Shown in pieces: positions 27,483 to 37,440 of a stretch of 64,000 nucleotides of DNA. This DNA comes from Bacteroidota bacterium (lineage in GTDB: Bacteria; Bacteroidota; Rhodothermia; Rhodothermales; UBA10348), in the NCBI GenBank assembly GCA_022567305.1, contig JADFHF010000017.1, positions 1 through 64,000 on the forward strand, in the 5' to 3' direction. Each line of letters begins with the position of its first letter. The first letter of the stretch is position 1. A program made the translations under genes and the position numbers. The notes beneath the pieces were generated by a model, which saw only the letters and a program-made list of their open reading frames with translations, did no database searches and had not been told where the DNA came from.

Positions 27483-27797
27483 CTACTCTGCCTCCGTAGA
27501 ATCCGACTCTTCAATAACTTCGACCTCCTTTTGATCGCGTTCAATAACGATTTCCACATCTGTCACGAGCGCGGCCAGTGCGCCAACGGCGGCGAGAACC
27601 GGTGTAAAGAAAATAGCGGCTGTGGCTCCACCGACGCCCACGGTTAGGGGAAATTCAAGCAACGTCCGATTGTCTTTGCGAATGCTCACGCGGCGTGCTT
27701 TTCCTTCTTCGATGACCTCTTTGATTTTATCGACAAGCTGATTGCCCTTCACCTTGATTTCCTCAAGGTTGATCTTTACGCGGTCTTTTCCAGTCAT
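27483..27797 (-). CDS. DUF4342 protein
   Basis: Protein of 104 residues. A helical start (INLEEIKVKGNQLVDKIKEV, IEEGKARRVSIRK) leads to FPLTVGVGGATAAIFFTPVL and a hydrophobic AAVGALAALVTDVEI segment, the DUF4342 pattern, then an acidic tail. The family is thought to be membrane-associated; function unknown. It is 54 bases upstream of the PLP enzyme gene on the same strand. Confidence 0.8.
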   Translation of the reverse strand: MTGKDRVKINLEEIKVKGNQLVDKIKEVIEEGKARRVSIRKDNRTLLEFPLTVGVGGATAAIFFTPVLAAVGALAALVTDVEIVIERDQKEVEVIEESDSTEAE

Positions 27798-28057: not shown

Positions 28058-28504
28058 ATGGGTCAACAGCAACTTCTTCTCCTGGTGCTCGGTATCGTTA
28101 TCGTCGGTCTTGCCGTCGTTGTTGGTATTCAGGCATTTAGTGAGAATCAGAAAAAGGCTAATGCCGATGCAGTCGTTAACGATGCCATCCGCATCTCGAG
28201 TGACGCACAGGCATGGAAGCTGAAGCCAGCCGCATTCGGCGGTGGCGCCAGTGCCGTTGAGTGGACAGGACTTACGTTTAATCAAATGGGTTACGAAACC
28301 GGTGATCAGCCGTACAGCTCTGCTACTGCGACAGCTACTGAGTATGAGAACTTGAACGCGATTTATGCGCTTTCAAATCAGGTCGCTGGTCCTTTGACCA
28401 TCACGGCCACCAGTTACGAAACGGACGGATCAACGGTACTCAATTTGATTGTCGTCACCGTAGCCGGTACTCAACCTAGTGACATTTCGACTACGGTCAA
28501 CTAA
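28058..28504 (+). CDS. pilin-like protein 1 with minimal leader
   Basis: Protein of 148 residues opening MGQQQLLLLVLGIVIVGLAV, one long hydrophobic helix running into a polar amphipathic stretch (QAFSENQKKANADAVVNDAI), then a small globular domain of Gly/Ala/Thr-rich strands. That is the build of a type IV pilin, and it sits beside pilC and pilB. There is no ordinary prepilin leader and no E5. If the leader is processed, MG before QQQ would be the shortest possible, similar in style to archaeal G-Q class III signals. A strong terminator follows, consistent with high expression. Probably the major subunit; inferred. Confidence 0.75.
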   Translation: MGQQQLLLLVLGIVIVGLAVVVGIQAFSENQKKANADAVVNDAIRISSDAQAWKLKPAAFGGGASAVEWTGLTFNQMGYETGDQPYSSATATATEYENLNAIYALSNQVAGPLTITATSYETDGSTVLNLIVVTVAGTQPSDISTTVN

Positions 28505-28555
28505 GTCACCGGGATGAACATTGCGTAATCCACCCTCACCGGTGGATTCGTGAAG

Positions 28556-28593
28556 GAGGCGGCTTCGCTAACGCGAGGCTGCCTCTTTTTTTT
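28556..28593 (+). terminator. strong Rho-independent terminator after pilin-like gene 1
   Basis: A 13-bp stem GAGGCGGCTTCGC/GCGAGGCTGCCTC (two G-U pairs), three-base loop TAA, then eight T. It would cut most transcripts before the rest of the pilus genes. Confidence 0.9.
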
Positions 28594-28692
28594 GTGTCGT
28601 ATTAAGAGATCGCGCGTTTCGTCGATACTGAGCGTAGTCAATATGCCCTGTTTCAGGGTCATATTAGCTAGGTAGCCAAGGACTTAGAAACC

Positions 28693-29109
28693 ATGGGACA
28701 ACAACAACTTTTATTGCTGGTGATGGGAATTATCATCGTGGGAGTAGCCGTGATGGCCGGACTCTTTGCGGTTCAGGACCAGCTAAAGAAGAGCCAGGCT
28801 GATAATATCGTAAGCAGGAATCTCGAAATCGCAAGCTCCGCGGTTATGTGGAAAACCAAGCGTGATCCGTACTCCGGCGGGAATCAGAGTTACTCCGGGC
28901 TGAATACGAACGGCTTCGCTGAACTCTTCATGGATTCCGAGACAGACGATGCATATTACGCTCTGAACAGCCCCTCGACACTCGAATTGGAGATCACCGG
29001 TGTCGCGAAGCGCTATCCGAATATAGGTGCGCGCACCTACGTGAATGACTACGATGTCCTTTTGACCGACGTGAAGTACAACGGTACGTACACGATCCCG
29101 ACTCCTTAA
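28693..29109 (+). CDS. pilin-like protein 2 with minimal leader
   Basis: Protein of 138 residues, paralogue of the previous one: MGQQQLLLLVMGIIIVGVAV then LFAVQDQLKKSQADNIVSRN. The N-terminal ~60 residues are clearly related, while the globular domain differs (YYALNSPSTLELEITGVAKR). It lies after the terminator and 43 bases before pilC, so it is likely made at lower level with the assembly proteins, as a minor pilin would be. Function inferred from position and helix only. Confidence 0.75.
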   Translation: MGQQQLLLLVMGIIIVGVAVMAGLFAVQDQLKKSQADNIVSRNLEIASSAVMWKTKRDPYSGGNQSYSGLNTNGFAELFMDSETDDAYYALNSPSTLELEITGVAKRYPNIGARTYVNDYDVLLTDVKYNGTYTIPTP

Positions 29110-29152
29110 CCATTCTCAAATTCCCTCACGTTCTCGGGGCCTGGTATAAACA

Positions 29153-30508
29153 ATGGCAGTAAAGGAATACAAATTTACAGGTGTCAGTCCTGACGGACAG
29201 CCGGTTCAGGGGTCTGTCTTTGCCGGAACCAAGAAAGCCGCCCAGAAGAAAGTAGACGACCTGGCGGAACGACACACGTTCCGCTCAAGGACACTTGAGC
29301 CTCGCGAGATCTATCTGTATCGCGTACGACACGCGAACGGGAAGATCATGAATGGGGAGCAAAAGGCCTTCTCCGCTGAAGAGATTGAGAACGCACTGGA
29401 GAAGATGGGCCTTGAAGTACTCAAGGTCAATCGAAAGCTATTCTCCTACCAAAGAAAGCCGCCGAAAACGGATATGATTATGTTCGTGCGGCTTTCCGCA
29501 AACTTGCTCCGTGAAAAACTTCCTTTCGACGAGGTACTCAACCTCCTCGTCAACGATGTGTCCTCTTCGAGTCTCAAACAGGTTATTCGTGACCTGAATG
29601 CCGACCTAAAGGGTGGAATGGAGGCTCAGCAGGCTTTTATGAAGCACCAGCACATGTTGGGCAAGTTTACTGCCTATATGCTTGGTATCGCGTCCCAGAC
29701 AGGAAACATGGCAGAGATCTACGAAGCAACGGCCAGATTCCTCGAGCGTCAAAACGAATTCAAGAAGAGTATTAAAAGCTCCATGGTGACGCCTGCAATT
29801 ACCATGCTCGTGCTGATCGCCGTTTTTATCTGGTACGTCTGGGTCATTTTCCCGGAAACCGCAGGATTATTTGAAGGATTTGATATTACGCTCCCCCCAA
29901 TGACTCGGAAAACGCTCGCGTTTTCGCACTGGATGGATACCAATTATGGATGGGTGTTACTCGTATGTACGATTGTTACGGGCTCGATCATTGCCTTTGT
30001 CAAGTCCAAGCGAGGTCTCTTCCTCATTCATAAGCACTTGATTCGTCTCCCGCTCATTGGAGGTCTTCTTCACAAGCTGAATATCGAAATTTTCTGTCGC
30101 GTCTTCGCCGTTCTTTATTCCGGAAGCGGAGATAACATTCCGGTTATTCGCATAGCAGCGGAAGCCTGCGGCAACAAGTACATGGAATACCAGATCAAGA
30201 CCGTCACGATTCCGATGATGGTGGCACAGGGTGCGGAACTGGTTAAGTCTATGGAAGCATCTGGCGTCTTTACATCGATGGTACTCGCGCGGTTTCGAAG
30301 TGGGGCAGAAACGGGTAACGTGCGCGACAGCGCGCGTCAAATGGCCGATTATTACGAAAGGGAAACGTCGCTGAAACTGGCATCAACGATCGAGGTGATT
30401 CAGACACTCGTTGCGGTGGTCATTACGATCGCGATTATGGGGTTGACGATCATTTCATCTGAAATCGCTCTGATTAGTCCATCGAGCGAGGACTTCATGA
30501 ACTACTAG
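29153..30508 (+). CDS. pilC: type IV pilus/type II secretion inner-membrane platform protein
   Basis: PilC/GspF family, 451 residues. Two T2SSF domains lie at about residues 105-230 and 305-440, with three membrane helices (LVLIAVFIWYVWVIF near 220, VLLVCTIVTGSIIAFV near 267, VVITIAIMGLTIIS near 425). The N-terminal 100 residues hold two small beta-alpha units (YKFTGVSPDGQPVQGSVF and YLYRVRHANGKIMNGEQKAF) that look like internal repeats; ordinary PilC has only one. It anchors the extension ATPase encoded just downstream (26-base gap). Confidence 0.92.
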   Translation: MAVKEYKFTGVSPDGQPVQGSVFAGTKKAAQKKVDDLAERHTFRSRTLEPREIYLYRVRHANGKIMNGEQKAFSAEEIENALEKMGLEVLKVNRKLFSYQRKPPKTDMIMFVRLSANLLREKLPFDEVLNLLVNDVSSSSLKQVIRDLNADLKGGMEAQQAFMKHQHMLGKFTAYMLGIASQTGNMAEIYEATARFLERQNEFKKSIKSSMVTPAITMLVLIAVFIWYVWVIFPETAGLFEGFDITLPPMTRKTLAFSHWMDTNYGWVLLVCTIVTGSIIAFVKSKRGLFLIHKHLIRLPLIGGLLHKLNIEIFCRVFAVLYSGSGDNIPVIRIAAEACGNKYMEYQIKTVTIPMMVAQGAELVKSMEASGVFTSMVLARFRSGAETGNVRDSARQMADYYERETSLKLASTIEVIQTLVAVVITIAIMGLTIISSEIALISPSSEDFMNY

Positions 30509-30534
30509 AAGACCGAGAAAAACAGTAACGAACG

Positions 30535-33432
30535 ATGTCATCAAAAACGTCTCGAAAACCACGCATTAAGCGCGACTCGAAGAAATCTCCAAAGAAATCA
30601 TCGACTCCGAACCGTCAGCATGAAGTGAAAGCCGATGTGCTCGAGAAAGCACTCAGCGAGCTGATGGACATGTCGGACGATGAACTTACGGAAACCCTTT
30701 CTTCGATGTCGCTGGATCAACCCCCTAACTCGAAGCAAACGGTAAGGGCTGCTCCAGAAAACAAGCCAGAGGCAGCCGAAAAAGAGAGTGCGGACGGAGT
30801 CAACGAGACCGCCGAAGACAGGTCGGAAATGGTAGAGGATCCAACGACGTTGTCACTGGTTCAGACCGGCATTGTCAATATTGCCCAGGTTTCTGAGGCG
30901 CTCAAAGAGAAGGAAGGGGATGGAGAGTTGTGGAGGACGCTAGCGAAGGTGGACGGTGTGAACGGCGAGGCTGTATTTGCAGCGGTCGCCAAAGCATCGG
31001 GTGTTTCTTTCTATACCTATTTGGATGCGGCCCCAACCCGGGAGCTGGTCAATGAATTGATTTCATTCCTCACCGCGGAAAAGCTCGAGGACCTACTGAA
31101 TCACGGGCTGTTACCTGTGGATCTCGAACCCTCTTCGGACGAGTCTACCAACAAGCTCTTGTTGGTAACACACGATCCGACTAATGCGTCCATCTCCGAT
31201 TATCTCAAGTCGAATGAGATTGAAGGCGGTTGTCTGTTTGCTCCACTGAGCCAGGTCGCCGAGCGTATCGGCATCGTCAGGGGATGGCTGACATCGAGTT
31301 CACCATTTGGTTTGGGCTCGGCGCTCGGGTCCGGTGTCGACGAAAAATCCGACGATGGGTCTTGGGATGATATCCATGTGGGTGAATTTGACGCCAAAGC
31401 AACGGATTCTCAAGAATCCGGTTCGGACTCGAACAACGGAATGGAATCTGAAGATGAGCAGGAAGAAACTCTACAAACGACTCCTGAATCCGAGGATTTC
31501 CTTACAGACTATCTCATCGAAGGCGATGGCATACCGCTGTACATTGATGACAGCCATGACGCCAGCGGTGATCACGATCCGGCCGATATCGTGACGATCC
31601 CATCCAATGGCGACGAAGGAGAACCGCCTTCATTACTTACTCCGGCTTCCCACGATAGAGTGATACGCTCGCTCTTGGGAAGTGGGCACGTCAGTGAAAA
31701 ACAAGTTCAGCAAGCGATTGCAGACTGGCAGGCGGGTAACGGTCGCGAGGCTCTTTGGCGCATTTTGGGTGATCAGCCAGAGGTCAACAAGGAGGCGGTG
31801 TATGAAGAAGCCGCCCGTGTTTATGCATTCAAACAGGAGCAAATTGGGAACGGGCGACCGGACTTCGATTTTGTTCTCCTGACGATGCAAACGGTAGCGG
31901 AAGATCAGAGAGAAGAACTACTCGACCTGCTCCTTCTTCCGTTCGAGCACGTCGTGGATTATGAAACAGGTGTAGGACGAATGATTTTCGTCACTCCCGA
32001 TCCAACCCACCCGGAAGTAAGCCGGCTGTTACACGAACTGGATCTTGGCCGCTTCGAACTTAAGTATGCTCCAGAGTCCGAAATCAGAGCTCTTCTGGAA
32101 GAGTTATTTCCTCGAAAAAATGAGTACCTCGAACGGATTTCAACGGAAGACACAGCCTTCGATTTCGGGACCAGTTACGAAGATTCGGCCGACCTCGTTG
32201 ACGAAGAAGCGCTTGACGCTGAAATCAAGCGGTCGAAACTGATCAATCTCTTCGAGGCGACTTTGGTCGAAGCAACCCGAATGGGAGCATCCGACATCCA
32301 TATTTATCCGAATCCTAAGAGGCAGGTAGAAATCCATTTCCGCCTTGACGGACGTTTGAAACACTGGCATACGGAGAAAGGGATTGCACCAGAAGCATTT
32401 CTATCCGTCGTAAAGGACAATTCGACAAACGTCGATCGCTTTGAGCGAGACGCGGCACAGGATGGCTATATACAGCGCCGCATCGACGATGCCCTGATTC
32501 GCTTTCGTGTATCGATCCTCCCGATCGCCACTGCGAATCAGGAATTACGAGCAGAGAGCATCGTTATCCGAATTTTGGACGATAGGAAGGTGCTTACCGA
32601 ACTCGATCAATTGGGAATGCTCGACGTTGCGCTTGAAAGATTTGACAAGGCAATTCGTCAGCCCCACGGGATGGTCATCCTGACCGGTCCAACGGGATCT
32701 GGCAAGAGTACTACACTGGTTGCTGCCCTGTACCAGGTGGTAACATCTGAAGTCAACGTCCTCTCGGTTGAGGACCCGGTAGAGTACATCATTAACGGCG
32801 TTCGACAGATAAAGCTAAGCCATAAGCTGAACCTCGAGAGCGCCTTGCGCTCGATCCTGCGGCATGACCCTGACATCGTCATGGTGGGTGAGATGAGAGA
32901 TCACGAGACCGCTGAACTCGCCATCAAACTTGCCAACACGGGTCACCTGACGTTTTCCACGCTTCATACGAATGATGCACCAGCCGCCGTGAGTCGACTG
33001 TACAAGATGGGCGTTGAGCCTTTCCTGATCGCGTATGCGATCAATCTGGTTGTGGCGCAGAGACTGATTCGTACGGTCTGTCCGACGTGCAAGGCCGAAG
33101 ACAAGAGTCCGGACAAGGTCCTGATGAAGTCTCTCGGTTGGACCGACAAGGAAATTGAAGAGACGACTGTCTACAAGGCGATGCGAGGCGGGAACTGTGC
33201 TACGTGTTCGGGTATCGGGTACAAGGGTCGACGCGCCATTTGCGAAACGCTTTACTTCTCCGATAAAATACGTCATATTATTGCTGAAGCAGGCACCGAC
33301 ATCGACGAAGGCGCGATTCGCAAAATAGGCATCGAGGAAGGAATGCTTACGCTCATGGAGTCGGCCAAACGGTTGGTCGAGATGGGTGAAACGACCCTCG
33401 ACGAAATGCTTCGCACGACGGGGGCTGAGTAG
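30535..33432 (+). CDS. pilB: GspE/PilB-type assembly ATPase with duplicated N-terminal domain
   Basis: Hexameric ATPase for pilus assembly, 965 residues against the usual ~570. The core has Walker A GPTGSGKST (K724), Walker B region DIVMVGEMRDHETAELAIKL, the histidine loop STLHTNDAPAAVSRL, and a zinc site CPTC (about 848-851) with CATC (about 888-891). The extra length comes from a disordered acidic start, a first MshEN-like domain (~104-245), a ~120-residue acidic linker and a second MshEN-like domain (~374-530). MshEN domains bind cyclic-di-GMP in other proteins; whether these do is untested. Confidence 0.92.
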   Translation: MSSKTSRKPRIKRDSKKSPKKSSTPNRQHEVKADVLEKALSELMDMSDDELTETLSSMSLDQPPNSKQTVRAAPENKPEAAEKESADGVNETAEDRSEMVEDPTTLSLVQTGIVNIAQVSEALKEKEGDGELWRTLAKVDGVNGEAVFAAVAKASGVSFYTYLDAAPTRELVNELISFLTAEKLEDLLNHGLLPVDLEPSSDESTNKLLLVTHDPTNASISDYLKSNEIEGGCLFAPLSQVAERIGIVRGWLTSSSPFGLGSALGSGVDEKSDDGSWDDIHVGEFDAKATDSQESGSDSNNGMESEDEQEETLQTTPESEDFLTDYLIEGDGIPLYIDDSHDASGDHDPADIVTIPSNGDEGEPPSLLTPASHDRVIRSLLGSGHVSEKQVQQAIADWQAGNGREALWRILGDQPEVNKEAVYEEAARVYAFKQEQIGNGRPDFDFVLLTMQTVAEDQREELLDLLLLPFEHVVDYETGVGRMIFVTPDPTHPEVSRLLHELDLGRFELKYAPESEIRALLEELFPRKNEYLERISTEDTAFDFGTSYEDSADLVDEEALDAEIKRSKLINLFEATLVEATRMGASDIHIYPNPKRQVEIHFRLDGRLKHWHTEKGIAPEAFLSVVKDNSTNVDRFERDAAQDGYIQRRIDDALIRFRVSILPIATANQELRAESIVIRILDDRKVLTELDQLGMLDVALERFDKAIRQPHGMVILTGPTGSGKSTTLVAALYQVVTSEVNVLSVEDPVEYIINGVRQIKLSHKLNLESALRSILRHDPDIVMVGEMRDHETAELAIKLANTGHLTFSTLHTNDAPAAVSRLYKMGVEPFLIAYAINLVVAQRLIRTVCPTCKAEDKSPDKVLMKSLGWTDKEIEETTVYKAMRGGNCATCSGIGYKGRRAICETLYFSDKIRHIIAEAGTDIDEGAIRKIGIEEGMLTLMESAKRLVEMGETTLDEMLRTTGAE

Positions 33433-36582: not shown

Positions 36583-37440
36583 TTATTCCGTTCCCAGCGT
36601 TTCTAGAAAATGCTCAGCAGATTGCTTGTATGAACCGTAGGCGGCGTTTTGGAAAGCACTCTTCGCATCGGAGTTGTTTCCCAGGCTCATGAGCGCCTCG
36701 CCCTTCACATAATAGATTTTCGCTTTGTCCGTACGACTTCCGCGGTGGATATCCAATGCCTGATCGGCCATAGAAACGGCATCCTGAAACTCGCCTTTTA
36801 TTTTGTGGACTTCTGCCAGATAGTAAAACACGTCGGAATCTGCGTCTACGACTGCCAGCAGCGTCTCGAGGTGTGTAAGCGCCTCATCCGCGTCAGCACT
36901 TGATGTTCGAACGCCGTTTCTGCTCAGAGCGCTAGACGCGAGATAGATATAGTGCTGTCGAATCGCTTTTTCAGCTGAGTTAGCCGTTTTGGTATCGCTT
37001 GCAGCAAGGGCGACTCCGATTGTTTGCACAAAACCAGCCATGGCCGCGTCGACCTCTCCCTTCTTCTTTAGCGCGCTAGCCCTTGCCAGAAAGTTTTTCG
37101 GATACGTCGAATACTGGTTGATCCCATTTTCGAAATGTGAAATCGCCTCGTCGTATTTCTCGGAGTTAATGAGTCCGATTCCGACACTGTACTCGATTCT
37201 GGCTATAAATTCCCTCGAACGACGTTCTACTTCTGCATCGCCCTCAGCTTCGGCCGCATCCGCTGCGTCGGCAAAATGCTCGAGAGCGGCTGGAAGATCT
37301 TTGGCTCTGGCGGCTTCGAGGCCCGCATTAAATGTTTCTTTGTACTCCTGTGCGTATGCGGGTTCAATTCCTGCGAATGCGACGATCGTGGCAAGCGCCA
37401 CGATCAGGATACCGAGGCGGTGATTACGACTGGCTGTCAT
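36583..37440 (-). CDS. periplasmic TPR-repeat protein
   Basis: Protein of 285 residues with a signal peptide (ILIVALATIVAFAGIEPAYA before QEYKETF) and about five tetratricopeptide-type helix pairs, such as FNAGLEAARAKDLPAALEHF, IGLINSEKYDEAISHFENGI and ALMSLGNNSDAKSAFQNAA. It probably scaffolds an envelope complex. A terminator follows at once, and a ~490-base gap lies upstream, so it is likely a single-gene unit. Confidence 0.85.
   Translation of the reverse strand: MTASRNHRLGILIVALATIVAFAGIEPAYAQEYKETFNAGLEAARAKDLPAALEHFADAADAAEAEGDAEVERRSREFIARIEYSVGIGLINSEKYDEAISHFENGINQYSTYPKNFLARASALKKKGEVDAAMAGFVQTIGVALAASDTKTANSAEKAIRQHYIYLASSALSRNGVRTSSADADEALTHLETLLAVVDADSDVFYYLAEVHKIKGEFQDAVSMADQALDIHRGSRTDKAKIYYVKGEALMSLGNNSDAKSAFQNAAYGSYKQSAEHFLETLGTE

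Follow-up and report, generated by a model that had tools for sequence, protein, structure and literature searches.

How can a type IV pilus be built from pilins that carry no leader peptide? This question is raised by a locus at positions 28,058 to 33,432 of a 64,000-nucleotide stretch of DNA, here called the window, which comprises positions 1 to 64,000 of contig JADFHF010000017.1 (assembly GCA_022567305.1) of a Bacteroidota bacterium of the order Rhodothermales. Canonical prepilins are targeted by the signal recognition particle (SRP)/Sec route, keep their leader inside the cell and are then cleaved by a prepilin peptidase (PMC4471445), and both leader and peptidase are rated as core elements of type IV filaments (PMC4471445; PMC6668835). 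In the window, two leaderless pilin-type genes precede the genes of a platform protein and an assembly ATPase, and no peptidase of the A24 type is detectable in the genome. With a probability of roughly 0.83, the locus is interpreted as encoding the major subunits, the platform and the extension motor of a type IVa-like pilus whose pilins are born leaderless and whose peptidase has been lost. It also appears likely, if with slightly less confidence, that a whole lineage of type IV filament machines in the range of Rhodothermota, Balneolota, Ignavibacteriota and KSB1 dropped leader and peptidase alike, its pilins being born mature and assembled and retracted by PilB, PilC and PilT.

All genes of the locus are located on the forward strand. 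A pilA1-like gene (28058..28504; open reading frame and AlphaFold2 model) codes for a leaderless major pilin of 148 aa that begins with MGQQQLLLLVLGIVIVGLAVVVGI... and a pilA2-like open reading frame (ORF; 28693..29109) codes for a second leaderless pilin of 138 aa. Both share the N-terminus MGQQQLLLL and are 37% identical to each other. They are followed by the gene of a PilC-type inner-membrane platform protein (29153..30508; 451 aa; PF00482, T2SSF, E 2.9e-28), which matches the GspF/PilC models with E values of 1.9e-44 to 6e-40, all under the equivalog cut-offs, and by that of a PilB-type assembly ATPase (30535..33432; 965 aa; PF00437, T2SSE, E 4.4e-98; TIGR02533, 1.5e-116; TIGR02538, 2.1e-114, the last under its equivalog cut-off). 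This PilB is enlarged at its N-terminus by an MshEN-like region (PF05157, E 9.5e-6). Pfam and NCBIfam searches with the window pilins returned nothing useful and no N_methyl (PF07963) match. In the 3.76-Mb genome, the pattern M-[any residue coded by RRN]-QQQ-L is restricted to two sites, the two window pilins. Together with the spread of the family and its linkage to pilC and pilB described below, this shows that the motif is not a product of chance. An intrinsic terminator separates the two pilin genes (28552..28597, forward strand; 17-pair stem with U-run, -32.1 kcal/mol, z -5.4), and an intergenic hairpin with a T-run was found in 27 of 62 pilin-gene pairs. The strength of this terminator and the recurrence of such hairpins between pilin genes would fit an overproduction of the first pilin, and the terminator probably results in more pilA1 than pilA2.

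The leader is truly absent rather than hidden. In-frame stop codons are situated two codons (pilA1) and eight codons (pilA2) upstream of the ATG with no start codon in between, and in all 43 genes considered, the two of the window and 41 homologues, an in-frame stop lies 1 to 13 codons upstream without an alternative start, which rules out overlooked upstream start codons. Translation begins exactly at the motif in 169 of 174 distinct homologues. Among these 169, position 2 is Gly in 168 and no charged residue occurs within the first 24 aa in 167; the major pilins also lack the glutamate at position 5 (E5). A class III signal peptide, defined as a 6-26-aa leader whose last residue is Gly (PMC4471445), is absent from these pilins, and a standard leader was seen in none of the 174 homologues. 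Some of the loci were gathered via the motif itself, which biases the collection toward MGQQQ, and a motif-independent profile search added variants with MGTQQ, yet not a single leadered homologue. The net charge of residues 25-45 is zero or negative in 157 of 169 homologues, the stretch after the helix being mostly neutral or acidic. With the N-terminal amine as the sole positive charge ahead of the helix, this arrangement fits an N-in topology.

Neither an A24 peptidase (PF01478) nor N_methyl prepilins were found in the window's genome, and this combination recurs among its relatives. Across 297 sampled genomes of the phylum, of which 142 contain T2SSF, 38 A24 and 26 N_methyl prepilins, the MGQQQ family is encoded in 101, all of which possess T2SSF. 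Pfam A24 is missing from 90 of these 101, and the 79 whose T2SSF count fits one PilC lack both A24 and N_methyl without exception. A24 was found in 11 MGQQQ genomes, and each of these carries more T2SSF domains, indicating a second PilC-type gene, together with N_methyl genes. In G065, the one such genome that was inspected, canonical minor prepilins and a PilC are grouped and the major prepilin adjoins A24 about 20 kb away, while the MGQQQ genes are located far from the canonical prepilins, PilC and A24. A phylum-tuned A24 profile was built from 17 sequences and recovered mini-A24s that PF01478 missed. In MGQQQ genomes, it added only marginal partial matches in G081 and G251 (E 2e-4), where profile positions 50-125 are matched inside 1054-aa ORFs, short of the GxGD site; both matches are probably spurious, and an overlooked divergent A24 was accordingly rejected as an explanation. 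Assembly gaps are not the cause of the absence either, since 11 single-contig MGQQQ genomes (G003, G030, G073, G112, G124, G132, G179, G188, G191, G236, and G295) lack A24 by both profiles.

These counts bear directly on an archaeal-style G|Q cleavage after MG, the first of two routes offered by the original prediction, the second being insertion without processing. The near-invariant Gly2 is followed by Gln in nearly all homologues, and E5 is often absent from archaeal pilins as well (PMC4471445). However, the cutting would have to proceed without a candidate enzyme in most MGQQQ genomes, known leaders are hydrophilic and 6-26 aa long (PMC4471445), five homologues read MGTQQ in place of MGQQQ, and no G|Q site is common to the minor pilins described below. 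Cleavage of this kind is improbable; direct insertion, at most with removal of Met, is the likelier of the two routes.

The association of the pilins with their assembly genes extends well beyond the window. From 448 GTDB relatives, 80 were kept, mostly from Rhodothermales/Rhodothermia, Balneolaceae, Melioribacteraceae/Ignavibacteriae, and KSB1. Where more than 4 kb of downstream sequence was available (60 GTDB loci), pilC was present in 52 and both pilC and pilB in 50, with a median distance of 87 bp from pilin to pilC. In a PilC tree, 46 MGQQQ-linked rows are split from seven canonical rows of the phylum by a branch with support 100/100, and the window PilC falls into one clade with the other MGQQQ-linked PilCs. 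The original prediction had described two related MGQQQLLLL proteins directly upstream of pilC and an enlarged pilB, had regarded them as pilin-type subunits devoid of charged leader, cleavage site and E5, and had named a constant linkage with pilC and pilB among relatives as a test. The description is borne out, the linkage is strong, and a standard leader occurs in none of the homologues.

A search by tblastn of INPHARED phages with a window pilin as query yielded no match, nor did one of plasmids with a 91-aa consensus-like family query. Two leaderless MGQQQ pilin genes, along with another pilin-like gene that also lacks a leader, are located at 1087-2768 of a 21-kb contig (L140, IMGVR_UViG_3300004481_000163) that encodes a phage terminase large subunit (1.7e-56) as well; these pilins are possibly phage-borne and might change the pilus of the host.

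In distant genomes (L037-L055), the usual gene order is pilin-pilin-pilC-pilB-pilT-pilMN-pilO-pilQ-response regulator. The corresponding second half is found in the window's genome on another contig (C85, L058). It includes a PilT retraction-type ATPase (L058:9690-11084; TIGR01420, 6.3e-93, 311.7 bits against a cut-off of 319.1, which the PilT of the relative L047 exceeds), a PilO-like protein of 333 aa (family against solved PilO, 5e-6) and a short PilQ secretin of 453 aa (Secretin domain, 1.7e-28; TIGR02515, 3.8e-26, under cut-off). A 621-aa protein of the same contig appears to be a PilM-N fusion. The C-terminal half of its family matches PilN (3jc8) at 1.1e-13, and its PilM half, the weakest of these assignments, is based on position and on a weak match to the PilM-like Amuc_1101 (E 0.063).

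Two further contigs of the window's genome carry leaderless minor-pilin cassettes of the I/J/K type in GspI-J-K/PilV-W-X order (L207 7962-10656 on contig C57 and L208 about 5871-9685 on contig C7), one of them with two K-type genes. In the relative G183 (L211), the genes of the I-, J- and K-type families, p16-p10-p15, closely precede pilT-pilMN-pilO-pilQ, from which they are separated by two other ORFs. Like the major pilins, the minor pilins begin at the hydrophobic helix. The N-terminus of the K-type p15 is mostly MG, in many cases MGK or MGR; in the I-type p16, MP, MN, MQ or MG are frequent starts. Of 44 distinct members of the J-type p10, 37 have their first D or E at codon 6, which would correspond to position +5 if the start Met replaces Gly-1.

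These genes revise the original prediction, in which peptidase, PilM-Q and retraction ATPase were said to be missing nearby. This holds for the window, but PilT, PilMN, PilO and PilQ are encoded elsewhere in the genome, and it is the peptidase that is missing from the whole of it. Since these components and the minor pilins occur in the same genome, the machine is not stripped-down, and the notion of a reduced fibre system that fits no named class had to be given up. Judged by its gene content, the window locus belongs to a type IVa-like pilus system without a peptidase, with the loci split over contigs. Contig C32 of this genome additionally encodes a second PilB-type ATPase (L057:9765-11720; 651 aa; T2SSE, 6e-97), next to which no pilus gene could be recognised. 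Neighbors of the pilin locus in the window are a DUF4342 protein gene (27483-27797, reverse strand; E 2.3e-26), which is divergent from the pilin genes, and a gene for a secreted-looking TPR protein (36583-37440, reverse strand), 3 kb downstream of pilB.

Structure prediction suggests a pilin shape for the major pilin, namely a long N-terminal helix with a beta-sheet head. The AlphaFold2 model, calculated with 43 homologues, shows a helix of residues 2-55 and five strands (pLDDT 81.7, pTM 0.74). Similarly, the model of p10 exhibits a helix spanning residues 2-57 together with a sheet domain (pLDDT 84.9). In Foldseek, the XcpV/XcpW minor pseudopilin complex ranks as its most probable match (probability 0.97, E 0.2). 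A PDB profile search with the K-type minor pilins was uninformative.

We infer a pathway in which translation of the pilin would begin where the mature helix starts, leaving no leader to cut, and in which the hydrophobic N-terminal helix alone would serve as the membrane-targeting signal. The N-terminus would stay in the cytoplasm, probably minus its Met. Methionine aminopeptidase takes off a Met that precedes Gly. With Gly at position 2, the mature major pilin would consequently begin with Gly-Gln-Gln-Gln, and such removal seems somewhat more plausible than retention of the Met. PilB and PilC may then lift the subunits into a helical fibre that passes through PilQ, with pilA1 as the abundant subunit owing to the strong terminator behind its gene, and PilT could retract this fibre. 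In such a system, a prepilin peptidase would be unneeded and would have been lost.

Several points weigh against this interpretation. Met trimming as a general rule for all N-termini is contradicted by p10, as its position 2 is mostly Q, N, I or H and thus unsuited to methionine aminopeptidase. The conserved neighborhood of the operon offered no evident candidate for PilP, a search that was not extended genome-wide. The genomes of the sample are related, and the counts are therefore not independent trials. The filament is predicted from genes, and the likeness of the major pilin to solved structures is weak: the top PDB matches in Foldseek include PilA, PilV and PAK pilin, with E values of at least 0.44, and the best results of a PDB profile search are Geobacter geopilin fragments (E 0.18). 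This likeness is suggestive and backs the assignment as a pilin without proving it, the main argument being genomic. The same two points would favor a role of the MGQQQ proteins as membrane-bound accessories of a PilB/PilC machine with the real pilins encoded elsewhere. Against this role, no canonical prepilin (N_methyl) was found in the 79 genomes with the MGQQQ machine mentioned above. Moreover, the predicted fold is pilin-like, pilA1 has its own strong terminator and the minor pilins are leaderless too, which renders the accessory role quite improbable.

The absence of the peptidase is a further point of caution, as it rests on homology search, and PF01478 at an E value of 1e-3 missed divergent mini-A24s (~160 aa) in genomes of this phylum that carry a canonical pilus. 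Small A24 peptidases of ~145-200 aa were encountered in such genomes (L157-L162), several of them below this detection limit. Homology searches are also blind to an unrelated, as yet unrecognised peptidase that might cut the MGQQQ pilins. This enzyme would find almost nothing to remove ahead of the helix, and the conserved neighborhood holds no recurring extra peptidase-like gene; its existence is considered very unlikely. A type IV pilus remnant in decay, with processing and function lost, might be read from the loss of leader, E5 and peptidase and from the split operon of the window's genome, but is hardly credible given genes that are open and strongly conserved across Rhodothermota, Balneolota, Ignavibacteriota and KSB1 and the retention of motors, secretin and alignment proteins.

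The reading of these proteins as pilins that are born mature has consequences beyond the window. No earlier description of leaderless type IV pilins, of MGQQQ or of a missing prepilin peptidase of this kind was found in the open-access literature. In the genome of Melioribacter roseus, which belongs to this range of phyla, pilT, pilQ, pilB and pilC were found and pilA and pilD were not (PMC3534657); a leaderless family would offer an explanation for this observation. It would also explain why annotation based on leaders or motifs misses pili in these phyla. Leader removal, a step held universal by textbooks, appears to have been dropped. If so, extraction and polymerisation would not inherently depend on cleavage, N-methylation or the E5 of major pilins, and the system would provide a natural test of the leader's purpose.

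Comparison with known systems reveals partial likenesses. Archaeal type IV pilins share with the MGQQQ major pilins the frequent absence of E5, but keep their leaders and an A24-type peptidase, of which the MGQQQ system has neither. For Nanoarchaeota and MSH loci, too, reviews note that a peptidase was not detected or not linked (PMC4471445; PMC6668835), and in this respect they resemble the present system. In contrast, MSH genomes contain the peptidase of another system (PMC6668835), whereas the window's genome has none and its pilins are leaderless. Within the same phylum, a canonical mini-A24 pilus (G065, G226) uses the same core of PilB and PilC and coexists with the MGQQQ system in G065. 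It is distinguished by charged leaders, E at +5, an A24 peptidase of ~160-215 aa and a PilC outside the MGQQQ PilC group. Compared to type IVa pili, the MGQQQ system is devoid of the class III signal peptide in major and minor pilins, of E5 in the major pilins and of the prepilin peptidase, its PilM and PilN are apparently fused and its PilQ is short. It nevertheless encodes an assembly ATPase, a platform, a retraction-type ATPase, PilM-N-O, a secretin, and major as well as I/J/K-type minor pilins, and in this respect resembles a type IVa pilus.

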